Part shown: piece by piece, positions 27,059 to 39,284 of the stretch
Layout of the letters: each line of letters opens with the position of its first letter
How positions within the stretch are numbered: the stretch's first letter is position 1
Program-made: the position numbers and the translations under genes
Notes under the pieces: generated by a model
Databases searched by the model: none
Seen by the model: the letters and a program-made list of their open reading frames with translations, nothing else
Told to the model about the DNA's origin: nothing
Assembly: GCF_009765985.1 (NCBI RefSeq)
Contig: NZ_LMUM01000011.1
Span: forward strand, 88,172 to 152,171
DNA from: Acidobacterium sp. S8
GTDB taxonomy: Bacteria > Acidobacteriota > Terriglobia > Terriglobales > Acidobacteriaceae
Reading direction: 5' to 3'
DNA: 64,000 bases

Positions 27059-28057
27059 GTGAACTTCGGTGTTATAGGTTACGGCTACTGGGGGCCGAAT
27101 ATCGTAAGGAATCTTGCCAGCCTAGAAGATTCCCGCGTGCTTGCGATCGCAGATGCAAGTCCAACAGCGCGGAAACGCGCACAAAAAGCGTATCCGGAAA
27201 TTCATGTGACCTCGGACGCTTCAGAAGTGACCTCGTCTCCTGAGATCGACGTTGTCGCAGTCATTACACCCGTCTGGACGCACTATGAGCTGGCCAAAGC
27301 TGCTCTCGAAAATGGAAAGCACGTCTTTGTCGAGAAGCCGTTTACCAGCAATACCGCTCAAGGCGAAGATCTGATTAATCTCGCGCGGCGAAAGAACCTG
27401 AAGATCATGGTCGATCATACGTTCCTGTTCACTGGAGCGGTGAAGAAGATTTCACAGCTTATGGATGAAGGAACGCTGGGAAAGCTCTATTACTATGACT
27501 CTACCCGTGTGAACCTCGGTCTGTTTCAGCATGACATCAACGTGCTATGGGACCTGGCTCCGCATGACCTCTCGATCATGGACCACCTGATCAACGGCAG
27601 CCCGGAAGCCGTGGTAGCGACGGGCCAAAATCACCTGAATGGGCACGAAGACGTCGCCTACATGACGCTGTACTTTCCCGAAAAGGTGATTGCTCATGTG
27701 AATGTCAATTGGCTTTCTCCGGTGAAAGTTCGTACCACATTGATCGGTGGCGAGAAGCGGATGCTTGTCTGGAACGATCTGGAAGCCGATGAAAAAGTAA
27801 AGGTATATGACAAGGGCGTAGATATCAGGAATCGTGAAGGTGTTTACGAATTGCTGGTGAACTATCGCTCTGGTGATATGTGGTCTCCGCAGTTGGAGCA
27901 GGTGGAGGCGTTAAAGCAGGAACTCACCTATTTCGTAGATTGCATCTCGAGCGGCGAAGAGCCGTTTAATAACGGCTGTGCCGGGCTGAGGGTCGTCAAG
28001 ATGCTGGAAGCCGCCACCGAATCGCTGCGACAGAAGGGCACCTTGGTTTATCTCTAG
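27059..28057 (+). CDS. Gfo/Idh/MocA family sugar oxidoreductase
   Basis: A 332-residue NAD-dependent oxidoreductase. The Rossmann start is GVIGYGYWGPNIVRNL, followed by VFVEKPFTSN (EKP motif with catalytic Lys) and the LAPHDLSIMDHL stretch with a conserved His. Family members of this type (WlbA/WbpB-like) oxidise a nucleotide sugar at C3 so that an aminotransferase can act. The formyltransferase and DegT-type aminotransferase that follow support amino-sugar synthesis. The start codon is GTG. A 110-bp gap before it contains the small dyad GAGTA-N5-TACTC near 27007-27021. Confidence 0.88.
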   Translation: MNFGVIGYGYWGPNIVRNLASLEDSRVLAIADASPTARKRAQKAYPEIHVTSDASEVTSSPEIDVVAVITPVWTHYELAKAALENGKHVFVEKPFTSNTAQGEDLINLARRKNLKIMVDHTFLFTGAVKKISQLMDEGTLGKLYYYDSTRVNLGLFQHDINVLWDLAPHDLSIMDHLINGSPEAVVATGQNHLNGHEDVAYMTLYFPEKVIAHVNVNWLSPVKVRTTLIGGEKRMLVWNDLEADEKVKVYDKGVDIRNREGVYELLVNYRSGDMWSPQLEQVEALKQELTYFVDCISSGEEPFNNGCAGLRVVKMLEAATESLRQKGTLVYL

Positions 28058-28820: not shown

Positions 28821-30110
28821 ATGAATAATGCAACGCAAATCCCGTTCCTTGATCTGATCACGCCGCATGCTGAACTCGAGGGCGAGTTGGTCGAAGTGTT
28901 CAAAGGTGTACTGAAGAACGCAGGTTTCATCGGCGGTCCCTTGGTCGAAGAATTTGAAAATACATTTGCTGCTTTCTGTGATGCGCGCCACTCCGTTGCC
29001 GTAAGCAGCGGAACCGATGCACTGCGCTTTGCGCTCATGGCGTGTGGAGTTGAGAATGGCGATGTGGTCGTAACCGTTCCGCATACTTTCATCGCAACCA
29101 CGGAGGCCATCTCGCAGGCAGGTGCTCTTCCGGAATTCGTGGATATCGACGAACGCACCTACAATATGTCGCCGGAGATGTTGCGCCGTTATCTGGATCA
29201 GCAGTGTGTGCGTGATAGCGCCGGCAAGCTGATCAGCGTGAGAAGCGGGCGTCCGGTCACTGCAATTGTTCCGGTCCACATCTACGGTCAGATGGCTGAC
29301 ATGGATGCGATCCTTCAACTGGCTGAGGAATACGGCCTGGTTGTAGTGGAAGATGCGTGCCAGGCTCATGGCGCCGAATACTTCTCTGAGAAGTTCAATT
29401 GCTGGATGAAGGCCGGCTCGGTTGGCCAGGCCGCGGCATTCAGTTTTTATCCGGGAAAGAATCTCGGAGCGTGTGGTGAAGCTGGTGCAGTCACGACGAA
29501 TGACGATGAAGTAGCGGCTACGATCAAGATGTTGCGCGATCACGGCCAGGCCAGAAAGTACCACCATAATGTGGAAGGCTATAACGGGCGCCTGGATGCA
29601 TTACAGGCTGGATTGCTACAGGCGAAGCTGGCTCATCTGGCGAAATGGAATGCACTCCGGCGGGATCGCGCTGCGGAATACAACCGTATCCTCGGGGATA
29701 TCGAGGCCATCACTCTTCCCTATGAGCCGTCATGGTCACACGCTGTATATCACCTGTACGTGATTCGTACTTCCGATCGTGATGCCCTGGTGAACCACAT
29801 GAATCTTGCAGGTATCGGCACGGGGATTCACTATCCGATTCCTCTGCATATGCAGAAGGCCTACGTATCGCTTGGATACAGCCCGGAAGACTTTCCCGTT
29901 GCGAGAATGGTAGCCGCCGAAATCGCTTCTCTTCCGATGTTCCCTCAGCTCACCGCCGAGCAACAGGCACGTGTAGCAGACGAGCTCGTGGCATTTGCCG
30001 CTAAATCCGAATCAGCTTTGGTGACGAAAGCAGGCGATGCTGGCGAGATTGATCCTGCTCTGTTGCAAACGGTTGGCGGCAATGGACGCGGTGCTTCGCG
30101 GAGCCGGTAA
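28821..30110 (+). CDS. DegT/DnrJ/EryC1/StrS sugar aminotransferase
   Basis: A 429-residue PLP-dependent aminotransferase. The PLP-binding elements are VSSGTDALRFAL (about 62-73), VVVEDACQAHGA (about 174-185) and FSFYPGKNLGACGEAGAV, with the internal-aldimine Lys at about 213. Family members transfer an amino group from glutamate to a keto nucleotide sugar. With the C3-type oxidoreductase and the formyltransferase just upstream, it likely makes a 3-amino sugar that is then formylated. A C-terminal extension of about 45 residues is poorly conserved in character. Confidence 0.92.
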   Translation: MNNATQIPFLDLITPHAELEGELVEVFKGVLKNAGFIGGPLVEEFENTFAAFCDARHSVAVSSGTDALRFALMACGVENGDVVVTVPHTFIATTEAISQAGALPEFVDIDERTYNMSPEMLRRYLDQQCVRDSAGKLISVRSGRPVTAIVPVHIYGQMADMDAILQLAEEYGLVVVEDACQAHGAEYFSEKFNCWMKAGSVGQAAAFSFYPGKNLGACGEAGAVTTNDDEVAATIKMLRDHGQARKYHHNVEGYNGRLDALQAGLLQAKLAHLAKWNALRRDRAAEYNRILGDIEAITLPYEPSWSHAVYHLYVIRTSDRDALVNHMNLAGIGTGIHYPIPLHMQKAYVSLGYSPEDFPVARMVAAEIASLPMFPQLTAEQQARVADELVAFAAKSESALVTKAGDAGEIDPALLQTVGGNGRGASRSR

Positions 30111-30162: not shown

Positions 30163-31119
30163 GTGACCTCTGAAATCATGGCAGCAACTTCAAACTATGT
30201 ATTGATTACACCTGCGCGGAATGAAGCTCAATTCATCGGATTGACGCTTCAGTCCATGGTGGAGCAAACGCATCGCCCATTGAAATGGGTGATAGTCAGC
30301 GATGGTTCCACCGATGGTACGGACGAGATCGTTCGGAAATACGTTGCAGACTATTCGTGGATCGAGCTGCTGCGCATGCCAGACCGCAAAGAGAGACACT
30401 TTGCGGGTAAGGCACATGCCTTCAACGCCGGATACGAGCGAGTGAAAGACCTCGATTTCGATGTAATCGGCAACCTGGATGCGGACGTATCTTTCGATGC
30501 GGACCACTTTGAATCACTGATTGCGCGGTTCGCTGAGTACCCGCAGGTCGGCGTTCTCGGTGCTCCATTCCGGGAAGGAAATTATCAGTACGATTACCGA
30601 TTTACCAGTGTCGATAGTGTTTGGGGCGGTTGCCAGCTCTTCCGCCGCGAATGTTTCGAGATGATCGGCGGGTACGCTCCGCTCGAGAGTGGTGGAGTGG
30701 ATTTGGTTGCCGTGGTGACCGCTCGGATGAAGGGATGGCAGAGCCGAACATACTTCGGCAAAGTCTGCATACATCATCGCCAGATGAACAGCGCTATGAA
30801 CAAGGGTCTGAAGCTCAAGTTCAAGTGGGGAGAGAAAGATTACCGCCTTGGCAGTCATCCGGTATGGCATATCTTCCGGTGCGCCTATCAGATGAAGTAT
30901 TCGCCGTACATCGTCGGTGGTGCTTTGATGCTGGCTGGATACTACTACGCTGCAATCACTCGTTGTCCACGGTCGGTTTCTGCGGAGTTCATCGATTTTC
31001 GCGGGAAAGAACAGATGAATCGCTTGAAGAGATTTATTGCTCGTAAACCCCAGATTGCGGAAGGTGCAGTTTCACCGCAGATGGCGGCTCGTCCAAGCTC
31101 GAGCGGAGGTGGCCTGTGA
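30163..31119 (+). CDS. family 2 glycosyltransferase
   Basis: A 318-residue GT2. The domain covers about 8-230 with YVLITPARNEAQFIGL, the SDGSTDGTDE nucleotide-binding stretch and DVIGNLDADVSFD (DXD-like). The acceptor part has GGYAPLESGGVDLV. The C terminus has one short hydrophobic segment (about 250-268), so it is probably membrane-associated. The start is GTG 30163 or ATG 30178; neither has a strong ribosome-binding site. It overlaps the next gene by 4 bases (GTGA). It adds one sugar of the repeat unit; specificity unknown. Confidence 0.88.
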   Translation: MTSEIMAATSNYVLITPARNEAQFIGLTLQSMVEQTHRPLKWVIVSDGSTDGTDEIVRKYVADYSWIELLRMPDRKERHFAGKAHAFNAGYERVKDLDFDVIGNLDADVSFDADHFESLIARFAEYPQVGVLGAPFREGNYQYDYRFTSVDSVWGGCQLFRRECFEMIGGYAPLESGGVDLVAVVTARMKGWQSRTYFGKVCIHHRQMNSAMNKGLKLKFKWGEKDYRLGSHPVWHIFRCAYQMKYSPYIVGGALMLAGYYYAAITRCPRSVSAEFIDFRGKEQMNRLKRFIARKPQIAEGAVSPQMAARPSSSGGGL

Positions 31120-32045
31120 GATTGATCCATCAAGGCGTGAACAGTGCACGCGCGGGCGTTCGCTCAGCTCTTCGCAGTGTATTGAGCCAGGAGCGGCGCA
31201 CGGAACTGAAGCGGCTCCAGGGATTGGCGCGGAAACGTTGCGCACCGGTTCTGTCGCTAGTTCATGGGACCTTTACTACTGAGGAATTGATTGCGGATTT
31301 GTCGCGTCGACTGCCGGCCGATTTCGAAATCCTCATGGTTCATAGTTCGTTCGATGGATTTCTTCCCATGTATAAGGGCACGGCGAAAGAACTTCTCGCG
31401 GCCCTGATCGATTTCTGCGGACCTAACCGAACGCTGGTCATGCCTTCATTTGTTATGGGTGGCCGCACCTATGATTCGTCGGCTTATTTTCGTACGCACC
31501 CATTTGATGTCCGGCGCACTCCTTCGGAAGTCGGGTTGATTGCAGAAATCTTTCGCAGGACGCCTAACGTATTACGGAGCCTGCACCCGACTTGTAGTGT
31601 CTGCGCTCTCGGGCCACTGGCGAAGGAGATAACCACCGGTCACCACCTATCAGAAACGGGCCTCAGCCCGGATAGCCCCTTCGGAGTGATGACACGTGGC
31701 CGCACGGCGATTCTCGGCTTGGGTGTGGAATACTATCGCTGTCTAACGCATGCCCACACGGCCGGCCACCAGATGGGCGAAGCCTTCCCCATCAAATTTT
31801 CCAATCCGTTTACGCAGGTCACTCTTATCGACTACGACGGCAGCCGTTTTGAATACAGATTGGGACTGCCTGACCGGACCAAAAAATTAGATCTGACGAT
31901 TATCTGGTCCTTGCTCTCTGCAAATGAGTTGATGGAATGGCGCTATCACGGAATTCCCATGTTCCTGATTCCGAGCGCGGGAGTTTTGACAGATCGTTTG
32001 ATTGAAGCTGCACACCGCGGAATCACGATTTACGGAAAAGCCTAG
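31116..32045 (+). CDS. AAC(3)-like N-acyltransferase
   Basis: A 309-residue member of the aminoglycoside 3-N-acetyltransferase (AAC(3)/YokD) fold. It has the family's MVHSSFDGF stretch, TLVMPSF, an RSLHPTCSVCALG segment and the THAHTAGHQ His-rich site. An N-terminal helical extension of about 45 residues is basic. In a polysaccharide locus the likely substrate is an amino-sugar intermediate, with acetyl-CoA as donor, rather than an antibiotic. Start codon GTG, overlapping the glycosyltransferase stop by 4 bases. Confidence 0.85.
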   Translation: MRLIHQGVNSARAGVRSALRSVLSQERRTELKRLQGLARKRCAPVLSLVHGTFTTEELIADLSRRLPADFEILMVHSSFDGFLPMYKGTAKELLAALIDFCGPNRTLVMPSFVMGGRTYDSSAYFRTHPFDVRRTPSEVGLIAEIFRRTPNVLRSLHPTCSVCALGPLAKEITTGHHLSETGLSPDSPFGVMTRGRTAILGLGVEYYRCLTHAHTAGHQMGEAFPIKFSNPFTQVTLIDYDGSRFEYRLGLPDRTKKLDLTIIWSLLSANELMEWRYHGIPMFLIPSAGVLTDRLIEAAHRGITIYGKA

Positions 32046-32079
32046 ACTGAGGCATTTCAGGCGAACGGAAGAAACTGAT

Positions 32080-33780
32080 ATGAGCGAGATGAAAGATAAG
32101 CCGAACGCACGGCGCGTGCTGCTGACCGGCGATACAACGCTGGAGCCACTCGGTCGGCTGCTTGAGCGCAACCAGGAAGCGCCGGCTGTGGTCACTTCGG
32201 CAGCACCATACGGGCAGGTGTTTCAGATTCTGCTGGATGCGAATCATTCCGCTTGGACGTTTCAGCCTAACGTGCTTGTTGTATGGACTGCGGCGCACAT
32301 TACGCTTCCTTCAGTCGGAAAGCTGATTCGCTTCGAAGGCGAATCGCCTGCTGCGGCTTACGAAGCCGCCATTGCAGAGGCCGAACAATTCGCCGATTCC
32401 GTCCTTCGTGCAGCGGATCGCGTTGATATGGTACTGGTGCCTACGTGGGTAATCCCCACTTACGAGCGGTGGGTGCAAACGCTCGCATGGCGGCAGGGAA
32501 TTGGCGTTGCGAATCTCATTGCCAGGCTGAACCTCCTACTCGCAGAGAAATTTGCCGCGCACCACAACATCGTTCTGCTCGACGCCGCATATTGGCAGGC
32601 AAGCCTGACCCGTTCGGCATACGATCCGCGCATGTATGCCTTCGCCAAGATACTGTACTCACAGCAGCTCTTTGAAAAAGCTGCAGCAGAGATGAAGGCG
32701 ATCCTGAGAGGATCCTTGGGGCAGACGAAAAAGGTAGTCGTTTGCGATCTCGACAATACACTGTGGGGCGGCGTAGTGGGAGACGACGGCTCGCACAACA
32801 TCAAGCTTGGCGCGCCAGATCCGGTAGGCGAATGCTTTTCTGCCTTTCAGCTGGTACTTAAGGGGCTCCGTTCTCGTGGCATTATGCTCGCGATCTCGAG
32901 CAAAAACGACGAAGCGTATGCACTGTCAGTAATTGAAGAGCATCCGGCGATGGTTCTGCGCAAGAGCGACTTTGTTGCGTGGCGAATCAACTGGAGAGAT
33001 AAAGCGGAGAACTTGCTAAGCCTTGCCGAAGAATTGAATCTGGGTCTTGACTCGTTTGTGTTCCTCGATGACAGCCCGCAGGAACGGGAGCAGATAAGGC
33101 AGGTTCTTCCGCAGGTATACACTCCGGATTTACCATCATCTCCCGCCGATTACGCATCGTTTCTTTCGACACTCAGTTGCTTTGAAACTTCGAGTATCGG
33201 TAAGGAAGATTTAGAGCGAACAACCATGTATCGGGCCGAGCGCGGCCGCAAGGAAGCTCTCGATCTTAGCGGTGATGTAGAGAATTGGTTGAATTCGCTG
33301 CAGATTAAAGTGCAGGCGGCTCCGTTATGTCGGGATAGCCTGCCGCGGGCGGCACAACTGCTGAATAAGACGAACCAGTTCAATCTAAGCCTTCGTCGTT
33401 TGGACGAGAAGAGCCTCTGGGATTGGGCAGAACAACCAAGCAACGCCGCGTATACCTTCGATGTCTCCGATCGATTCGGCAACTTCGGTCTTACCGGCCT
33501 GGCCAGTCTTTCACTCACTGGGTCCGAAGCAAGAATCGTTGACTTTGTGATGAGCTGCCGAGTGATGGGCAAGAAGGTAGAAGAGGCGCTGCTTGGGTAC
33601 ACGCTGGCGCAGGCGAAAGCTGCGGGAGCGGAGCGCATTATGGCACCGCCGGTTGATGGCCCACGAAATGGCCCGGCCAAAGATTTCTTTGCAAGCAAGT
33701 TTTCCAGTGTCGAAAGCGGTGCGATCGATCCGGGCCGAGTTGTCATTCCACCCCAAATCAACCTGATGGAGGAACGCTGA
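32080..33780 (+). CDS. FkbH-like HAD-IIIC phosphatase/acyl loader
   Basis: A 566-residue FkbH-type protein. The N-terminal part (about 10-205) is a SGNH/GDSL-like domain as usual in the family. The HAD domain begins VVVCDLDNTLWGG, giving catalytic Asp223 and Asp225, with ISSKNDE and VFLDDSPQER later. The C-terminal part (about 410-560) is GNAT-like (NKTNQFNLSLRR and FVMSCRVMGKKVEEALLG). FkbH proteins dephosphorylate 1,3-bisphosphoglycerate and load glyceryl (or a related acid) onto an acyl carrier protein. An acyl carrier protein gene follows at once. Start chosen at ATG 32080 with GGAAG upstream. Confidence 0.9.
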   Translation: MSEMKDKPNARRVLLTGDTTLEPLGRLLERNQEAPAVVTSAAPYGQVFQILLDANHSAWTFQPNVLVVWTAAHITLPSVGKLIRFEGESPAAAYEAAIAEAEQFADSVLRAADRVDMVLVPTWVIPTYERWVQTLAWRQGIGVANLIARLNLLLAEKFAAHHNIVLLDAAYWQASLTRSAYDPRMYAFAKILYSQQLFEKAAAEMKAILRGSLGQTKKVVVCDLDNTLWGGVVGDDGSHNIKLGAPDPVGECFSAFQLVLKGLRSRGIMLAISSKNDEAYALSVIEEHPAMVLRKSDFVAWRINWRDKAENLLSLAEELNLGLDSFVFLDDSPQEREQIRQVLPQVYTPDLPSSPADYASFLSTLSCFETSSIGKEDLERTTMYRAERGRKEALDLSGDVENWLNSLQIKVQAAPLCRDSLPRAAQLLNKTNQFNLSLRRLDEKSLWDWAEQPSNAAYTFDVSDRFGNFGLTGLASLSLTGSEARIVDFVMSCRVMGKKVEEALLGYTLAQAKAAGAERIMAPPVDGPRNGPAKDFFASKFSSVESGAIDPGRVVIPPQINLMEER

Positions 33781-34050: not shown

Positions 34051-34956
34051 ATGACCTATCAACAGCCACATATCTCCGTCTGCATCTGCACCTATAAGCG
34101 TCCGGAGTTGCTTAGGCGCGCGCTCGAAGCTGCCTGCATGCAACGCAAAGATGATCTGTTCACCTTCACTATCGTGGTCGTTGATAACGATAAAAATGAG
34201 AGTGGACGAGAGATTGCTGCGCAAATGGCATTAGAATGCCGTGTGCCTATCAACTATGTTGTTGAAGCTCGGCAAGGTATCGCTCTAGCACGCAATAAGG
34301 CTGTCGAGAGCGCCACGGGGAATTTCGTAGCTTTCATGGATGATGATGAGCTTCCGATTCAGGAGTGGCTGCTGACATTATTCAAAACGCTTCAGGGCTG
34401 CGAAGCCGATGGTGTTCTGGGTCCTGTGGATCCTCATTTCGACGAAGATACCCCACAATGGATTATTGAGGGCGGGTTCTATTCGCGGCCAAGCCATCCA
34501 ACCGGAATGAAACTTGCGTGGAGAAATTGCCGGACCGGCAATGTGCTGTTAAAACGCGAACTCTTCGCCACTGACGAGCAGCCATTTAATCCGGAGTGCT
34601 TGTCAGGCGAAGACCAGGATTTTTTCCGAAGAAAGATTGAAAAAGGGCATCAGTTCATATGGTGTCATGAAGCCACCATTTATGAAGTGGTGCCTGCTGT
34701 TCGCTGGAAACGCAGCTTTCTCATTCGCCGGGCGTTGTTCCGTGGCATCTTTGCACAACGGAACCATGGGCTCCAGCCGTTGCGGCTGCTGCAAGCGGTT
34801 GTGTCCGCGCCGGTATATGCATTAGCTTTGCCGATTGCTTTCATTTTCGGACAGGCAAAGTTCATGACATGCGTTTTCAAGTTGTCATATCACATGGGCC
34901 GATTGTTCGCTGTCGTCGGCCTGAATCCAATTCGACAGCGCTACGTTACGGAATAG
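34051..34956 (+). CDS. family 2 glycosyltransferase
   Basis: A 301-residue GT2. It opens with HISVCICTYKRPELLRRAL, then VVDNDKNESGREIA, and the catalytic acidic motif is FMDDDELP (about 96-103). The acceptor-side GEDQDFFRR follows, typical of the rhamnosyl/succinoglycan-type subfamily. A hydrophobic C-terminal segment (about 250-275) suggests membrane attachment. It starts 17 bases after the ACP gene and ends 20 bases before the tRNA-like element, so that element should be in the same transcript. Confidence 0.9.
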   Translation: MTYQQPHISVCICTYKRPELLRRALEAACMQRKDDLFTFTIVVVDNDKNESGREIAAQMALECRVPINYVVEARQGIALARNKAVESATGNFVAFMDDDELPIQEWLLTLFKTLQGCEADGVLGPVDPHFDEDTPQWIIEGGFYSRPSHPTGMKLAWRNCRTGNVLLKRELFATDEQPFNPECLSGEDQDFFRRKIEKGHQFIWCHEATIYEVVPAVRWKRSFLIRRALFRGIFAQRNHGLQPLRLLQAVVSAPVYALALPIAFIFGQAKFMTCVFKLSYHMGRLFAVVGLNPIRQRYVTE

Positions 34957-34976: not shown

Positions 34977-35064
34977 GGAGAGATCGCCGTTGGTAAGGCA
35001 GCGGCCAGCTTGCTGGCTGCGATGGGAAACCATCCGGAGGTTCGAATCCTACCTCTCTCCGCCA
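34977..35064 (+). tRNA. tRNA-Ser-like RNA without an anticodon loop
   Basis: An 88-nt class II tRNA-like element including an encoded CCA. Acceptor stem GGAGAGA (34977-34983) pairs fully with TCTCTCC (35054-35060); the discriminator is G, as in serine tRNAs. The D arm is GCC/GGC (34986-34999) with GG in its loop. At the anticodon-arm position GCGGCCAG pairs with CTGGCTGC (35001-35020; one G-U pair), closed by CTTG, a stable G(CUUG)C tetraloop with no room for an anticodon. The variable arm GATGG/CCATC carries a GAAA loop (35021-35034). The T-loop is TTCGAAT, its stem GGAGG/CCTACC with one bulged A. It lies inside the EPS operon, 42 bases before the FemAB/GNAT-like gene. Seryl-tRNA synthetase reads the variable arm and acceptor, not the anticodon, so charging is plausible while decoding is not. 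It could be a relic, but the intact pairing argues against decay. Confidence 0.8.
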
Positions 35065-35106: not shown

Positions 35107-36003
35107 ATGAAAGTGAGCAATAAGGAAATCAGAGTAAGCGGGCGTTGGCTGAAGATCGCTCGCCTGGATGCTGACAAGTATCAGTTCCTCGAAGATGCTG
35201 GATCATTTATTGAGGAGCTGCGTAAGGCCAGAGTGAAAGCTGACATTTTTACCTTCATGCAGGGCTTACCCTCGACAGAGCCCAAATACAAATTTCCAAT
35301 GGAATGGGACAATTTTGCTGCGATTCCTATTTCCACATTCGAAAACTGGTGGATGAAGCAGATTGGATTCAAGGCGAGAAACAAAGCCAAGCAGGCCGAG
35401 AAAAAGGGTGTTGTGATTCGTGAAGTGCCGTTCAATGACGAGCTTGTTCATGGGATATGGGAAATCTACAATGAATCGCCGATTCGCCAAGGCCGACGGT
35501 TTGCACATTACGGCAAAGACTTTGCCACCGTCTATAAGGAAGAAGCTACTTATCTTGATAGCAGTGTCTTCATCGGTGCGTACCTCGAAGAGAAACTTAT
35601 CGGCTTTGTGAAGCTGGTGAGCGATGAGAGCCGCACTCAGGCCGGGTTGATGAACATTGTCTCTCTCATCCAGCAGCGGGACAAGGCTCCCACGAATGCG
35701 TTGGTGGCGCGCGCTGTTCGCTCCTGCGCAGAGCGTGGAATTCCTTTTCTGGTGTATTCGAACTTCGACTACGGCAAAAAGCAGCAGGACAGCCTCAGAG
35801 ATTTCAAAGAACGCAACGCTTTCCAGCGCATGGATGTGCCACGCTACTATGTTCCGCTAACGCAGCTTGGCGCTGCTGCTGTCCGTCTCGGATTGCAGCA
35901 CCGGCTCACAGACTATATTCCGGAATCGGTTGCGTCGCGTCTGCGTGAATATCGCGAAGCATGGTACAACCGCAGGTTCGAAACAGCCACGGAGGCTTCG
36001 TAG
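35107..36003 (+). CDS. FemAB/GNAT-like transferase, uncharacterised family
   Basis: A 298-residue protein of an uncharacterised family with a GNAT fold resembling half of a FemAB protein. The start is MKVSNKEIRVSGRWLKIARL (ATG 35107; the longer frame runs through the tRNA-like element). The stretch RNKAKQAEKKGVVIREV (about 95-111) is like the FemABX region RxxxxKAEKxGV. It is followed by YNESPIRQGRRFAHYGK, FIGAYLEEKLIGFVKL (GNAT core strands) and RYYVPLT near the C terminus. FemABX enzymes transfer amino acids from aminoacyl-tRNA. With the tRNA-like element directly upstream, an aminoacyl-tRNA-dependent transferase acting on an EPS intermediate is my preferred inference. A CoA-dependent GNAT remains possible. 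Confidence 0.75.
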   Translation: MKVSNKEIRVSGRWLKIARLDADKYQFLEDAGSFIEELRKARVKADIFTFMQGLPSTEPKYKFPMEWDNFAAIPISTFENWWMKQIGFKARNKAKQAEKKGVVIREVPFNDELVHGIWEIYNESPIRQGRRFAHYGKDFATVYKEEATYLDSSVFIGAYLEEKLIGFVKLVSDESRTQAGLMNIVSLIQQRDKAPTNALVARAVRSCAERGIPFLVYSNFDYGKKQQDSLRDFKERNAFQRMDVPRYYVPLTQLGAAAVRLGLQHRLTDYIPESVASRLREYREAWYNRRFETATEAS

Positions 36004-36011
36004 AGCTGATC

Positions 36012-37850
36012 ATGCCTGGAATCGTTGGAATTATTACAAAAAAGTCGCGTGCTTGGGCGGAGCCGCAGCTGCAGAAGATGGTAGCTACCATGCGTCACGA
36101 ATCCTTTTATACAGAAGGAACCTGGGCGAATGAAGCCGCGGGAATTTATATTGGCTGGGTTGCGCGCAAGAATTCTTTTGCAGATGTAATGCCGATCTAC
36201 AATGAGCAGAACGATAAGATTCTCTTCTTTTCCGGGGAGGAATATCCCGATCCCGATGTTTATGCGCAGCTGAAGCAGCGCGGTCACTCATTCGAGACCA
36301 GAAGCGCAGCATATCTCGTTCATCTTGCGGAAGAAGATTTGTCGTTTCCTCGCAGCCTGAACGGTAAGTTTCAGGGACTGCTCATCGATTCTACCTCTGG
36401 AACCGCCACGCTCTTTAACGATCGCTTCGGCATGCATCGGTTGTACTATCATGAGTCACCGGAAGCCTTCTATTTCGCCGCCGAAGCGAAATCCATTCTT
36501 GCTGTGCGCCGGGAACTGCGCACGCCAAATCAGCAAAGTCTTGGTGAGTTCGTAGCTTGTGGTTGTGTGCTTGAAGACCGCACACTCTTCCAGGACATTC
36601 ATGTGCTGCCAACGGCTTCAGCATGGGTTTTCCGAAACGGCGCTCTACAGAACAAAGGGAAATACTTCGAGCCGTCAGAATGGGAAAACCAAGGGCCTCT
36701 TGAACCGGAAGCCTACTACAGGCAGCTGCAGGAAGTGTTCTCGCGCAATTTGCCGCGCTACTTTGGCGGCGACGAGAAGGTCGGGGTTTCGCTGACAGGC
36801 GGTCTCGACACACGCATGATTATGGCGTGGTGGAAAGCTGCTCCGGAATCGCTGCCTACATATACGTTTGGCGGCCCATACCGTGAATGCCAGGACGTGA
36901 TCATTGCCCGAAAAGTGGCGGAAGCATGCGGGCAGCCTTATCAGGTGATACCGCTGGGCAGTGAGTTTCTCTCGCGGTTTGCACACTATGCTGAGCGCGC
37001 CGTCTACCTGGCTGATGGATGCGTGACTGTACAGCGGTCTGCTGATCTCTATGCGAACGAGCTAGCCGCACAAATTGCCCCCATAAGAATGACTGGCAAC
37101 TATGGCAGCGAAATCCTGCGGCGGCTGCGAGCATTCAAGCCAACAGCGCCAGCGAGTGGACTCTTTCAGCCGGAATTTCTTTCGCATGTCGACCGCGCGA
37201 AGGATACCTTCCATCGGCTCTCTCAAGGACACGCAGTTACCTTCACTGCCTTTCGTCAGGCTCCGTGGTATCAGTATGGATTGCTTTCGCTTGAGCAAAC
37301 GCAGCTTTCGCTGAGGTCGCCGTTCCTCGATAACGATCTTGTTCAGACAGCGTTCAGGGCGCCTAAATCGGAGATCGTAAAGAGCGATATCTTCGAAGAC
37401 AACAGCGACTGCGGACGATTGATCGCTGACGGAAGTGCGGCTTTGCACCGCATTCCGACAGATCGCGGGCTTGGCGTTGGTGGCGGCGTATTATCGCGCA
37501 TGTCGCGAGGCGTGCTAGAGTTCACCTTTAAAGCGGAATACGCTTATGACTATGGGATGCCGCAGTGGATGGCTCGCATCGATCATGCGCTGTCGCGTCT
37601 GCACCTGGAGCATCTCTTCCTGGGACGTCATAAGTTCTGCCACTTTCGCGTGTGGTATCGGGATGCTCTCTCCTCCTATGTTAAGGAGATGCTCTTAGAT
37701 TCGCGCACACTGTCGCGGCCATATGTTCAGCGCAAGACGGTGGAGGCGATGGTGAGCGGCCACCTCAAGGGAAATCGCAATTACACGACAGAGATTCATA
37801 GGTTACTTACCCTTGAACTTCAGCATCGGCTGTTTCTCGATGCGCAATAA
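36012..37850 (+). CDS. asparagine-synthase-like protein lacking the glutaminase Cys
   Basis: A 612-residue AsnB-like protein starting at ATG 36012. The N-terminal glutamine-amidotransferase-like domain (about 1-200) begins MPGIVGII where active enzymes begin MCGI, so the catalytic Cys2 is replaced by Pro; FNDRFGMHRLYY is kept. The synthetase domain (about 240-560) has the PP-loop as VSLTGGLDTRM. It probably still activates a carboxylate with ATP, but it must take its nitrogen from ammonia or another amine, not from glutamine hydrolysis. AsnB-like proteins are common in EPS loci and may amidate a uronic acid. Located 8 bases after the FemAB/GNAT-like gene, so the two may work on the same decoration. 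Confidence 0.88.
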   Translation: MPGIVGIITKKSRAWAEPQLQKMVATMRHESFYTEGTWANEAAGIYIGWVARKNSFADVMPIYNEQNDKILFFSGEEYPDPDVYAQLKQRGHSFETRSAAYLVHLAEEDLSFPRSLNGKFQGLLIDSTSGTATLFNDRFGMHRLYYHESPEAFYFAAEAKSILAVRRELRTPNQQSLGEFVACGCVLEDRTLFQDIHVLPTASAWVFRNGALQNKGKYFEPSEWENQGPLEPEAYYRQLQEVFSRNLPRYFGGDEKVGVSLTGGLDTRMIMAWWKAAPESLPTYTFGGPYRECQDVIIARKVAEACGQPYQVIPLGSEFLSRFAHYAERAVYLADGCVTVQRSADLYANELAAQIAPIRMTGNYGSEILRRLRAFKPTAPASGLFQPEFLSHVDRAKDTFHRLSQGHAVTFTAFRQAPWYQYGLLSLEQTQLSLRSPFLDNDLVQTAFRAPKSEIVKSDIFEDNSDCGRLIADGSAALHRIPTDRGLGVGGGVLSRMSRGVLEFTFKAEYAYDYGMPQWMARIDHALSRLHLEHLFLGRHKFCHFRVWYRDALSSYVKEMLLDSRTLSRPYVQRKTVEAMVSGHLKGNRNYTTEIHRLLTLELQHRLFLDAQ

Positions 37851-37874: not shown

Positions 37875-39284
37875 ATGCCAACATTTACTCTAGCCGCGTC
37901 TCTGACCTTCAGCTTCTTTTTGATCTGGCGCGATTGCCGCAGACGTAAGACAGTAAGCGCGAGAGTATGGGTTCCCACCATGCTGATATTGATACTGGGC
38001 TCGCGGCCTGCATCCATATGGGCTTCGGGAGGTACGATTCATGCCAGCACGGAGATGGCCAACGACGTTGCGACAAGCAGTATCGATCAGATGTTTTATT
38101 TCTCTGTGCTGGCGAGTTCGCTTATTTTGGCGTCGCGGAAGGGTTTCAAGTGGGGCAAGCTTTTTGCAAGTAATCCTGCAATCATGCTTTTCTATCTCTA
38201 CTTCGCAATCAGCATCATGTGGTCGAGCGATCCGATAGGTTCAACAAAAAGAATTATCAAGGACTTCGGTCTGCTATTCGTGATCGCGGTCGTTCTTTCT
38301 GAAAAGGAACCGCTGCAGGCGATGCGAGCTATTTATGTTCGCTGCGGGTTTCTGCTGCTTCCACTCTCGATCGTATTCATCAAATATTTTCCTGTATACG
38401 GCCGGTCCTACGGCATCGCGGGAGATGTAATGCTTACGGGCGTGACGACACAGAAGAACTCCCTTGGCGAAATAGTACTGATCTTCACGCTGTTCATGGT
38501 CTGGGATTACCTTGAATCGCGGCCTCCCGGAGCAAAGTTCAGGATCGGGAAGATCCCGTGGGAAATTGTAATCCTGCTTGTGATTGGCGCGCAGCTGCTG
38601 AACCTCTCGCAGAGTAAGACGGCTTTGATGTGTACGCTGGTTGGAACGTTGTTAATCTGCCGCAGCGGTTGGCTGATGTCCAAGCCCATTAATATCGCGA
38701 TATTGGGAGCCACGCTCTTCGTCCCGTACTTTGTATTCTTTGCTGAGCAGTTTGCCTCCATACTCGGACCGCTGACAGAAGCCATGGGCCGCAACCTGAC
38801 TTTCACGGGGCGAACAGATATCTGGAAGCACATTTCGCTTAACACCGTAAATCCCATTATCGGTTCAGGTTATTGGAACTTCTGGGGCGGGCCGGGCGGA
38901 TACGCGGTGAACGAGTCTATGCACGCCATCATTCCCAATGCTCATAACGGGTATGTGGATCTCTTTCTCGACGGAGGGATTACCGGGCTGTGCATACTGG
39001 TCATCATGCTGACGGCCTGCGGTTATAACATCATGAGCCACCTGGGGCCGGGCCGTGACAAGACTCACTATCATCGCGCCAGATTTGCATTTCTGATCGT
39101 TGCGATTATCTACAACATCTCAGAATCGACGTTTGCCCGCATGGGACCAATCTGGTTTACGACGCTGATGATGCTAGTCGAATTTCCACTGCCGAAGGTC
39201 AGCCTACGTAAAGCCCAACCTGCGATTGTGCAACGCGAGAAGATGCCAGATGTACATACGGAATCGATGTTAGTCGCCCGCTAA
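37875..39284 (+). CDS. O-antigen ligase/polymerase family membrane protein
   Basis: A 469-residue multispan protein with about 11 membrane helices. It has the Wzy_C signature region in a large periplasmic loop: FTGRTDIWKH (about 315-324) and HNGYVDLFLDGGITGL (about 356-371). This matches WaaL/Wzy-type ligases that use undecaprenyl-linked sugars. In a Wzx/Wzy/Wzz locus it is most simply the polymerase. Encoded 24 bases after the AsnB-like gene. Confidence 0.88.
   Translation: MPTFTLAASLTFSFFLIWRDCRRRKTVSARVWVPTMLILILGSRPASIWASGGTIHASTEMANDVATSSIDQMFYFSVLASSLILASRKGFKWGKLFASNPAIMLFYLYFAISIMWSSDPIGSTKRIIKDFGLLFVIAVVLSEKEPLQAMRAIYVRCGFLLLPLSIVFIKYFPVYGRSYGIAGDVMLTGVTTQKNSLGEIVLIFTLFMVWDYLESRPPGAKFRIGKIPWEIVILLVIGAQLLNLSQSKTALMCTLVGTLLICRSGWLMSKPINIAILGATLFVPYFVFFAEQFASILGPLTEAMGRNLTFTGRTDIWKHISLNTVNPIIGSGYWNFWGGPGGYAVNESMHAIIPNAHNGYVDLFLDGGITGLCILVIMLTACGYNIMSHLGPGRDKTHYHRARFAFLIVAIIYNISESTFARMGPIWFTTLMMLVEFPLPKVSLRKAQPAIVQREKMPDVHTESMLVAR

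Follow-up and report, generated by a model that had tools for sequence, protein, structure and literature searches.

An anticodon-less serine-type tRNA gene encoded beside a predicted FemX-like transferase in a predicted Acidobacterium surface-polysaccharide gene cluster

In a stretch of 64,000 nucleotides from Acidobacterium sp. S8 (contig NZ_LMUM01000011.1, positions 88,172 to 152,171 of the forward strand; hereafter the window), the element at positions 34977 to 35064 folds as a class II, serine-type transfer RNA (tRNA) in which the anticodon loop has been lost. The element belongs to a covarying RNA family, most members of which lie directly upstream of a homologue of P0001, a gene for a protein with a predicted double-GNAT fold. 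We think it probable that the element is a tRNA gene without an anticodon, whose product would be charged by seryl-tRNA synthetase (SerRS) and would serve as a dedicated serine donor for the adjoining FemX-type transferase instead of the ribosome. The features on which this reading rests are:

34977..35064, + strand: serine-type anticodon-less tRNA gene with encoded CCA (fold; covarying family of 16 members)
35001..35020, + strand: 8-bp stem at the anticodon-arm position, with a CUUG tetraloop at 35009-35012 (fold; four of eight pairs changed on both sides)
35021..35034, + strand: variable arm, 5 bp, GAAA loop (fold; 100% of alignment cells paired)
35036..35053, + strand: T arm carrying an additional nucleotide on its 3' side (13 nt from the T loop to N73 in 16 of 16 copies)
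35107..36003, + strand: P0001, 298 amino acids, predicted FemX/Sbb17-like double-GNAT aminoacyl-tRNA-dependent transferase (AlphaFold2, Foldseek, VIA)

A serine-type RNA family without the anticodon loop

A preliminary description of the window, made from the sequence, had proposed a complete cloverleaf, and sequence and fold bear this out: the element has a 7-bp acceptor (GGAGAGA/TCTCTCC), a 3-bp D arm (GCC/GGC) with GG in its loop, a variable arm (GATGG-GAAA-CCATC), a TTCGAAT T loop, G73 and an encoded CCA. The fold also agrees with the proposed replacement of the anticodon loop by an 8-bp stem (GCGGCCAG/CTGGCTGC, closed by CTTG). Numbered as a tRNA, the element keeps the 5-bp stem of the anticodon arm (27-31/39-43, including G30-C40), and three extra pairs and the tetraloop stand in place of the loop. 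The minimum free energy (MFE) is -42.8 kcal/mol (z -3.65), and 1 of 200 shuffled sequences folded equally well. ARAGORN called zero tRNAs on the 64-kb window, and Rfam gave no family at its gathering score, the best match at E <= 10 being tRNA-Sec (27.5 bits versus a gathering score of 47). A promoter and terminator scan around the RNA found none.

A DNA search of 100 relatives returned one homologue, from the same genus and of 80% identity, whose tetraloop is UUCG and whose stem is altered yet paired; a protein search with the downstream gene led to a second, in Acidobacteriaceae bacterium fen_338, which is of the same family as the window's genome. With a covariance model built from these three elements, serine-type elements score 77.5-108.2 bits and ordinary tRNAs (six genomes) at most 55.5. 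The model found 16 copies, 13 of them outside the model itself, in 15 of 398 genomes of the window's family, representing 6 genera. In the 16-row alignment 98.0% of cells are paired, nine pairs are changed on both sides, and the covariation score exceeds that of 500 out of 500 shuffles, although these pairing and covariation counts lean towards the model because the alignment was fitted to it. In a sample of 199 genomes of the phylum, matches of 59-63 bits in nine genomes were all ordinary tRNA-Ser(UGA) and were rejected; the serine-type RNA is therefore found in this sample only in the window's own genome. RNA searches over 40 genomes ran with stricter filters, in which weak copies may be lost.

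The preliminary description had named covariation in the 8-bp arm together with a retained tetraloop as possible support. Such covariation is present, as four of the eight pairs carry changes on both sides; CUUG is common (6 of 16 copies) but not conserved, the other tips being UUCG, CUUA, UGCA, UUCA and more. The inner pair of this stem is A.C in 6 of 16 rows, which can give an 8-nt loop. Broken pairing of the acceptor or variable arm, which the same description had named as telling against it, is nearly absent from the homologues (99.1% and 100% of cells paired, respectively, with one acceptor mismatch across the 16 rows). A decaying tRNA-Ser pseudogene or a chance cloverleaf would fit the lack of any call by ARAGORN and Rfam; we give it next to no probability, because a chance origin is excluded by 16 homologues that show compensatory changes and whose gene neighbours are conserved, and the variable arm and CCA are intact throughout.

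Serine identity in bacteria is assigned to G73, C72, G2-C71, R4-Y69, C11-G24, the long variable arm and G30-C40, and does not depend on the anticodon (PMC9976931). The window element carries every determinant tabulated there, and G1-C72, G2-C71, G4-C69, C11-G24, G73, CCA and the long variable arm are invariant in 16 of 16 copies. None of the 16 has the standard 7-nt anticodon loop, because 9-12 nt separate positions 31 and 39. Judged from these sequences, the homologues predict an RNA that can be charged with serine and is unable to decode, in line with what had been proposed from the window alone. They also reveal a detail absent from that proposal: the distance from the T loop to the discriminator is 13 nt in all 16 homologues, in comparison with 12 nt in 10 of 10 rows of ordinary tRNA-Ser (nine distinct genes, four genomes), none of which has 13. 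A canonical tRNA-Ser is ruled out by the missing 7-nt loop with a serine anticodon and by the 13, rather than 12, nucleotides on the 3' side.

Linkage to a predicted transferase and a parallel threonine-type RNA

The AlphaFold2 model of P0001 has a predicted local distance difference test (pLDDT) score of 83.9. Its best structure matches, by Foldseek and VIA, are the aminoacyl-tRNA-dependent enzymes Sba18/Sbb17, FemX and MprF, and the double-GNAT fold spans most of the chain in the predicted structure. Searches of NCBIfam gave no match at E <= 1, and sequence searches of the PDB returned a cohesin domain (E 0.34) and weak acetyltransferase matches (E 0.009-0.034). The catalytic lysine of FemX is Lys305; in P0001, K234 and other lysines are invariant in 15 rows. 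Taken as modelled, P0001 is predicted to be a FemX-like transferase that uses aminoacyl-tRNA.

A P0001 homologue begins 30-225 nt downstream of 14 of the 16 serine-type copies. In several P0001 relatives that are more distant, the gene is followed immediately on its 3' side by a tRNA-Thr call, and a second covariance model was built from 13 such RNAs. Across the 398 family genomes it found 15 places scoring 87.6-104.7 bits, each of them adjoining a P0001-family gene (spacing from an overlap of 5 nt to a distance of 104 nt). Twelve of these 15 places are rows of the model, themselves found through adjacency to P0001; the remaining three (in genomes G768, G864 and G740) are new and form an independent test of the linkage (p 0.0015, with ancestry ignored, as in all our Fisher's tests). 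The models (R1 and R2) were thus built from 3 and 12, respectively, of the family-genome copies that they later found. The line at 87 bits was drawn after the gap from 87.6 to 78.9 bits had been seen, and at the search threshold the threonine-type model has some match in 396 of 398 genomes. The two matches just below the gap (L128 and L129; 78.9 and 78.6 bits), which have no P0001, were rejected as ordinary-looking tRNA-Thr with a paired T stem; below those, among the matches listed, come tRNA-Thr at <= 74.5 bits.

In the threonine-type rows the T-stem pair 52-62 is mismatched in 13 of 13, G35 and U36 are kept in 13 of 13, and U33 is replaced in 7; the loop of one row (L116) reads, by eye, ATTGTAA. 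Threonine determinants in bacteria are G34, G35, U36, G1-C72, C2-G71, G4-C69 and G5-C68 (PMC9976931), and the threonine-type RNAs retain all of them except G34. We take G35 and U36 to be kept because threonyl-tRNA synthetase (ThrRS) needs them, so that this RNA keeps an anticodon, although its T stem has a mismatch and U33 is often replaced. The contrast between the two types is the strongest internal argument for our reading: the anticodon has gone from the RNA whose synthetase disregards it, and survives in part in the RNA whose synthetase reads it. Both types occur in one gene row on contig C151 of genome G713, where a serine-type RNA and its P0001 are followed by a second, frameshifted P0001 and a threonine-type RNA.

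The two RNA types also separate on the protein tree. In a 68-row tree of P0001 relatives, all 15 rows labelled as serine-type fall within a 32-row clade (branch support 100/97), and 15 of the 16 labelled as threonine-type fall within a 19-row clade (100/100). The labels require 14 changes on the tree, compared with 30.1 when shuffled, and none of 200 shuffles was as low. The tree has 18 open forks; two of its long rows are frameshifted copies (L108_3691 and L126_1379), and the short rows L119 and L137 were excluded.

The position of the serine-type element between two genes, with gaps of 20 and 42 nt, and upstream of P0001 in 14 of 14 close cases, would also suit a cis-acting tRNA mimic. This would be a structure in a leader or between genes to which SerRS or the transferase binds, thereby regulating the operon, and it would be neither excised nor charged. 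Such tRNA-like operators are known, for example in thrS mRNA (PMC9976931). However, a mimic has no need of the encoded CCA and G73, which are kept in all 16 copies; moreover, the threonine-type RNA sits 3' of the gene, and in genome G648 the serine-type RNA is 10 kb from P0001. We therefore regard a mimic as unlikely.

Several loci carry variant arrangements. At L118 (4926-5019; G454:C493) lies a serine-type RNA whose D arm is canonical and which has either an 8-nt loop or a GCAA tetraloop, and 13 nt after the T loop. It sits roughly 1 kb to the 3' side of a P0001 relative of 42% identity and is possibly an intermediate form. At L064, some 110-140 nt upstream of a P0001 relative that is the closest relative of the G003 enzyme, a stretch that the covariance model does not find looks, by eye, like the decayed 3' half of a serine-type RNA. 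L125 (2423-4484; G535:C17) has two tandem P0001-family genes, and no RNA was found nearby. At L122 (2395-2468; G400:C60) a tRNA-Cys(GCA)-like gene whose anticodon arm is irregular lies on the opposite strand, some 330 nt from a threonine-clade relative of P0001, and at L127 (3564-3639; G395:C117) a normal-looking tRNA-Asn(GUU), on the same strand and about 95 nt upstream of a P0001 relative, might be another dedicated tRNA.

Gene neighbourhood and proposed function

Around the RNA and P0001 the window encodes, among others:

27059..28057, + strand: GFO/IDH/MocA sugar dehydrogenase (Pfam PF01408)
28821..30110, + strand: DegT/DnrJ/EryC1 sugar aminotransferase, a possible source of the acceptor amine (Pfam PF01041)
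34051..34956, + strand: family 2 glycosyltransferase, ending 20 nt before the RNA (Pfam PF00535; synteny)
35961..37850, + strand: asparagine-synthase-like amidotransferase, whose true start is probably slightly later (Pfam GATase_7 and Asn_synthase)
37875..39284, + strand: Wzy_C/O-antigen-ligase-like membrane protein (Pfam PF04932)

The cluster also encodes a formyltransferase, glycosyltransferases and a Wzz-like protein scoring below the cut-off. Of 13 wider loci with the serine-type RNA, 11 have the amidotransferase gene and nine the DegT/DnrJ/EryC1 aminotransferase gene. This gene content suggests a polysaccharide containing an amino sugar whose amine could accept serine; the amino-sugar amine as the acceptor is a guess. 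The same cluster contains, at 31116-32045, a protein of the aminoglycoside 3-N-acetyltransferase family and, at 32002-33780, one with an FkbH domain (NCBIfam TIGR01686). A scan for virus-contig patterns found nothing.

We propose that the RNA would be cut from the operon transcript and charged with serine by the host's ordinary SerRS, because this synthetase recognises its tRNA by the variable arm, acceptor and G73, irrespective of the anticodon. With its altered T arm the RNA would bind elongation factor Tu (EF-Tu) more weakly, and without an anticodon it would be unable to decode; the pool of seryl-RNA would therefore be reserved for P0001. P0001 would then transfer serine to the amine of a sugar precursor, plausibly the amino sugar that the cluster's MocA and DegT enzymes would produce.

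Several observations weigh against this proposal. As regards the RNA, the G30-C40 position is G-C in 11, A-U in three and G-U in two of the 16 copies. Placing the extra T-arm base in a T-stem bulge pairs 98.0% of cells, barely better than the 97.5% obtained with an unpaired C beside the acceptor, and the MFE folds of ten relatives are mixed, several favouring an unpaired base at the acceptor and one (L108) giving no cloverleaf. Of the 16 copies ARAGORN calls only two, and neither is given as tRNA-Ser: the first is named tRNA-Ala(AGC), the other a tRNA of unknown kind. As regards the protein, the fold matches of P0001 are only 8-15% identical, ordinary acetyltransferases also match the fold (at lower rank and mostly over one domain), and Pfam gave no match at E <= 0.001 and two unrelated ones at E <= 10 (E 0.099 and 0.13). 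As regards the linkage, the assembly of genome G741 has the serine-type RNA but lacks P0001; among 57 genomes that carry a P0001-family gene, 29 show neither type of RNA at the thresholds applied; no RNA lies near two P0001 relatives (L025 and L026) that come from other families of the phylum; and 17 of the 32 rows of the serine clade lack an RNA in the stretch fetched. A rescan of 27 loci with the model, all 17 of these included, gave the L118 variant as its sole match (55.1 bits). The RNA is therefore not obligatory, or a copy was missed: P0001 relatives without it may use ordinary tRNAs, or have a distant copy that escaped the search.

Beyond the window, we lean towards the existence of a class of bacterial tRNAs for non-ribosomal chemistry only. 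Each would share an operon with its own transferase and be shorn of those translational needs that its synthetase ignores (the serine type has no anticodon, the threonine type only the two bases read by ThrRS), with a disturbed T stem that would exclude EF-Tu; tRNA and transferase would be swapped together to place other amino acids on polysaccharides. The way in which FemX-type enzymes obtain aminoacyl-tRNAs that would otherwise go to translation is described as still somewhat unclear (PMC4052509). A private, non-decoding tRNA encoded beside its putative user enzyme is seemingly one genome's solution, and with the serine-type RNA the question becomes directly testable. The proposal would extend the predicted decorations of bacterial polysaccharides to serine and threonine, and it would mean that a natural non-translating tRNA largely escapes a standard finder such as ARAGORN.

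Comparison with known systems

Among known RNAs, tRNA-Sec is the best Rfam match. This tRNA has 13 nt on the 3' side of the acceptor plus T stem (8/5), the same number as the serine-type RNA, and the genome encodes SelA, so that serine could be imagined to be converted on a tRNA-Sec-like scaffold, by SelA or another enzyme, before transfer of the product. The two RNAs share the long variable arm, G73 and, presumably, a poor fit to EF-Tu, which in tRNA-Sec is rejected through pairs next to and in the T stem (RF01852; PMC9976931). Nevertheless, the serine-type RNA differs in having no anticodon, a 3-bp D stem and an unpaired U8.C66, and identity with tRNA-Sec was rejected, as the element scores far under the RF01852 gathering score and another place in the genome reaches 71.1 bits, above that score. 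This separate match lies 1.4 kb from selA on contig C29 (the two span G000:C29:578818-581410), and no selenium or conversion gene was recognised among 19 neighbours of the element scanned. We hold a conversion scaffold to be highly unlikely.

The allo-tRNAs share with the serine-type RNA serine identity, Acidobacteria among their hosts, an odd acceptor and T-arm geometry and an unclear function (Mukai 2017, via PMC7609411). An allo-tRNA-like or suppressor tRNA, active in unusual translation such as frameshifting without ordinary codon reading, would be in keeping with the 8-nt loop of the L118 relative, which could still read, and with the AGC anticodon that ARAGORN assigns to one copy. Allo-tRNAs, however, pair as 8/4 or 9/3 and possess an anticodon, often a non-serine one, and some are active in E. 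coli translation (PMC7609411); the serine-type RNA fails both features, as U8.C66 is unpaired and the 7-nt loop absent in all 16 copies, and allo-tRNA identity was rejected on these grounds. Linkage to a single transferase family would also go unexplained, and section 7 of PMC7609411 mentions no transferase partner. The chance that the RNA acts in translation in this way seems to us very small indeed.

Closer in proposed function is the non-proteinogenic tRNA-Gly of Staphylococcus aureus, which feeds FemX/A/B (Giannouli 2009, via PMC4052509 and PMC8007984). It too is a tRNA variant that supplies FemX-type transferases outside translation; its D loop is changed (PMC4052509, PMC8007984), and its T-stem pairs fit weak EF-Tu binding (PMC4052509). 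It is described with an anticodon (UCC) and serves peptidoglycan, whereas the RNA of the window has lost its anticodon, is of serine identity (threonine in the parallel system), and is encoded beside the transferase in a predicted polysaccharide cluster. On the enzyme side, the predicted double-GNAT fold likens P0001 to Sbb17/Sba18, its PDB matches, and to the GNAT-fold transferases VlmA, DhpH-C, PacB and Orf11, of which VlmA uses Ser-tRNA (PMC12945691). The donors in PMC12945691 are ordinary aminoacyl-tRNAs; its main text does not contain the terms 'tRNA gene', 'dedicated' or 'anticodon' and does not name Sbb17. Among open-licence full-text papers, a set outside which most subscription journals fall, we found no natural anticodon-less tRNA and no tRNA co-encoded with its transferase. 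The parts of the system thus have known relatives in FemX-like transferases, staphylococcal tRNA-Gly and allo-tRNAs, and what appears to be new against that literature is an anticodon-less tRNA encoded together with its predicted transferase.
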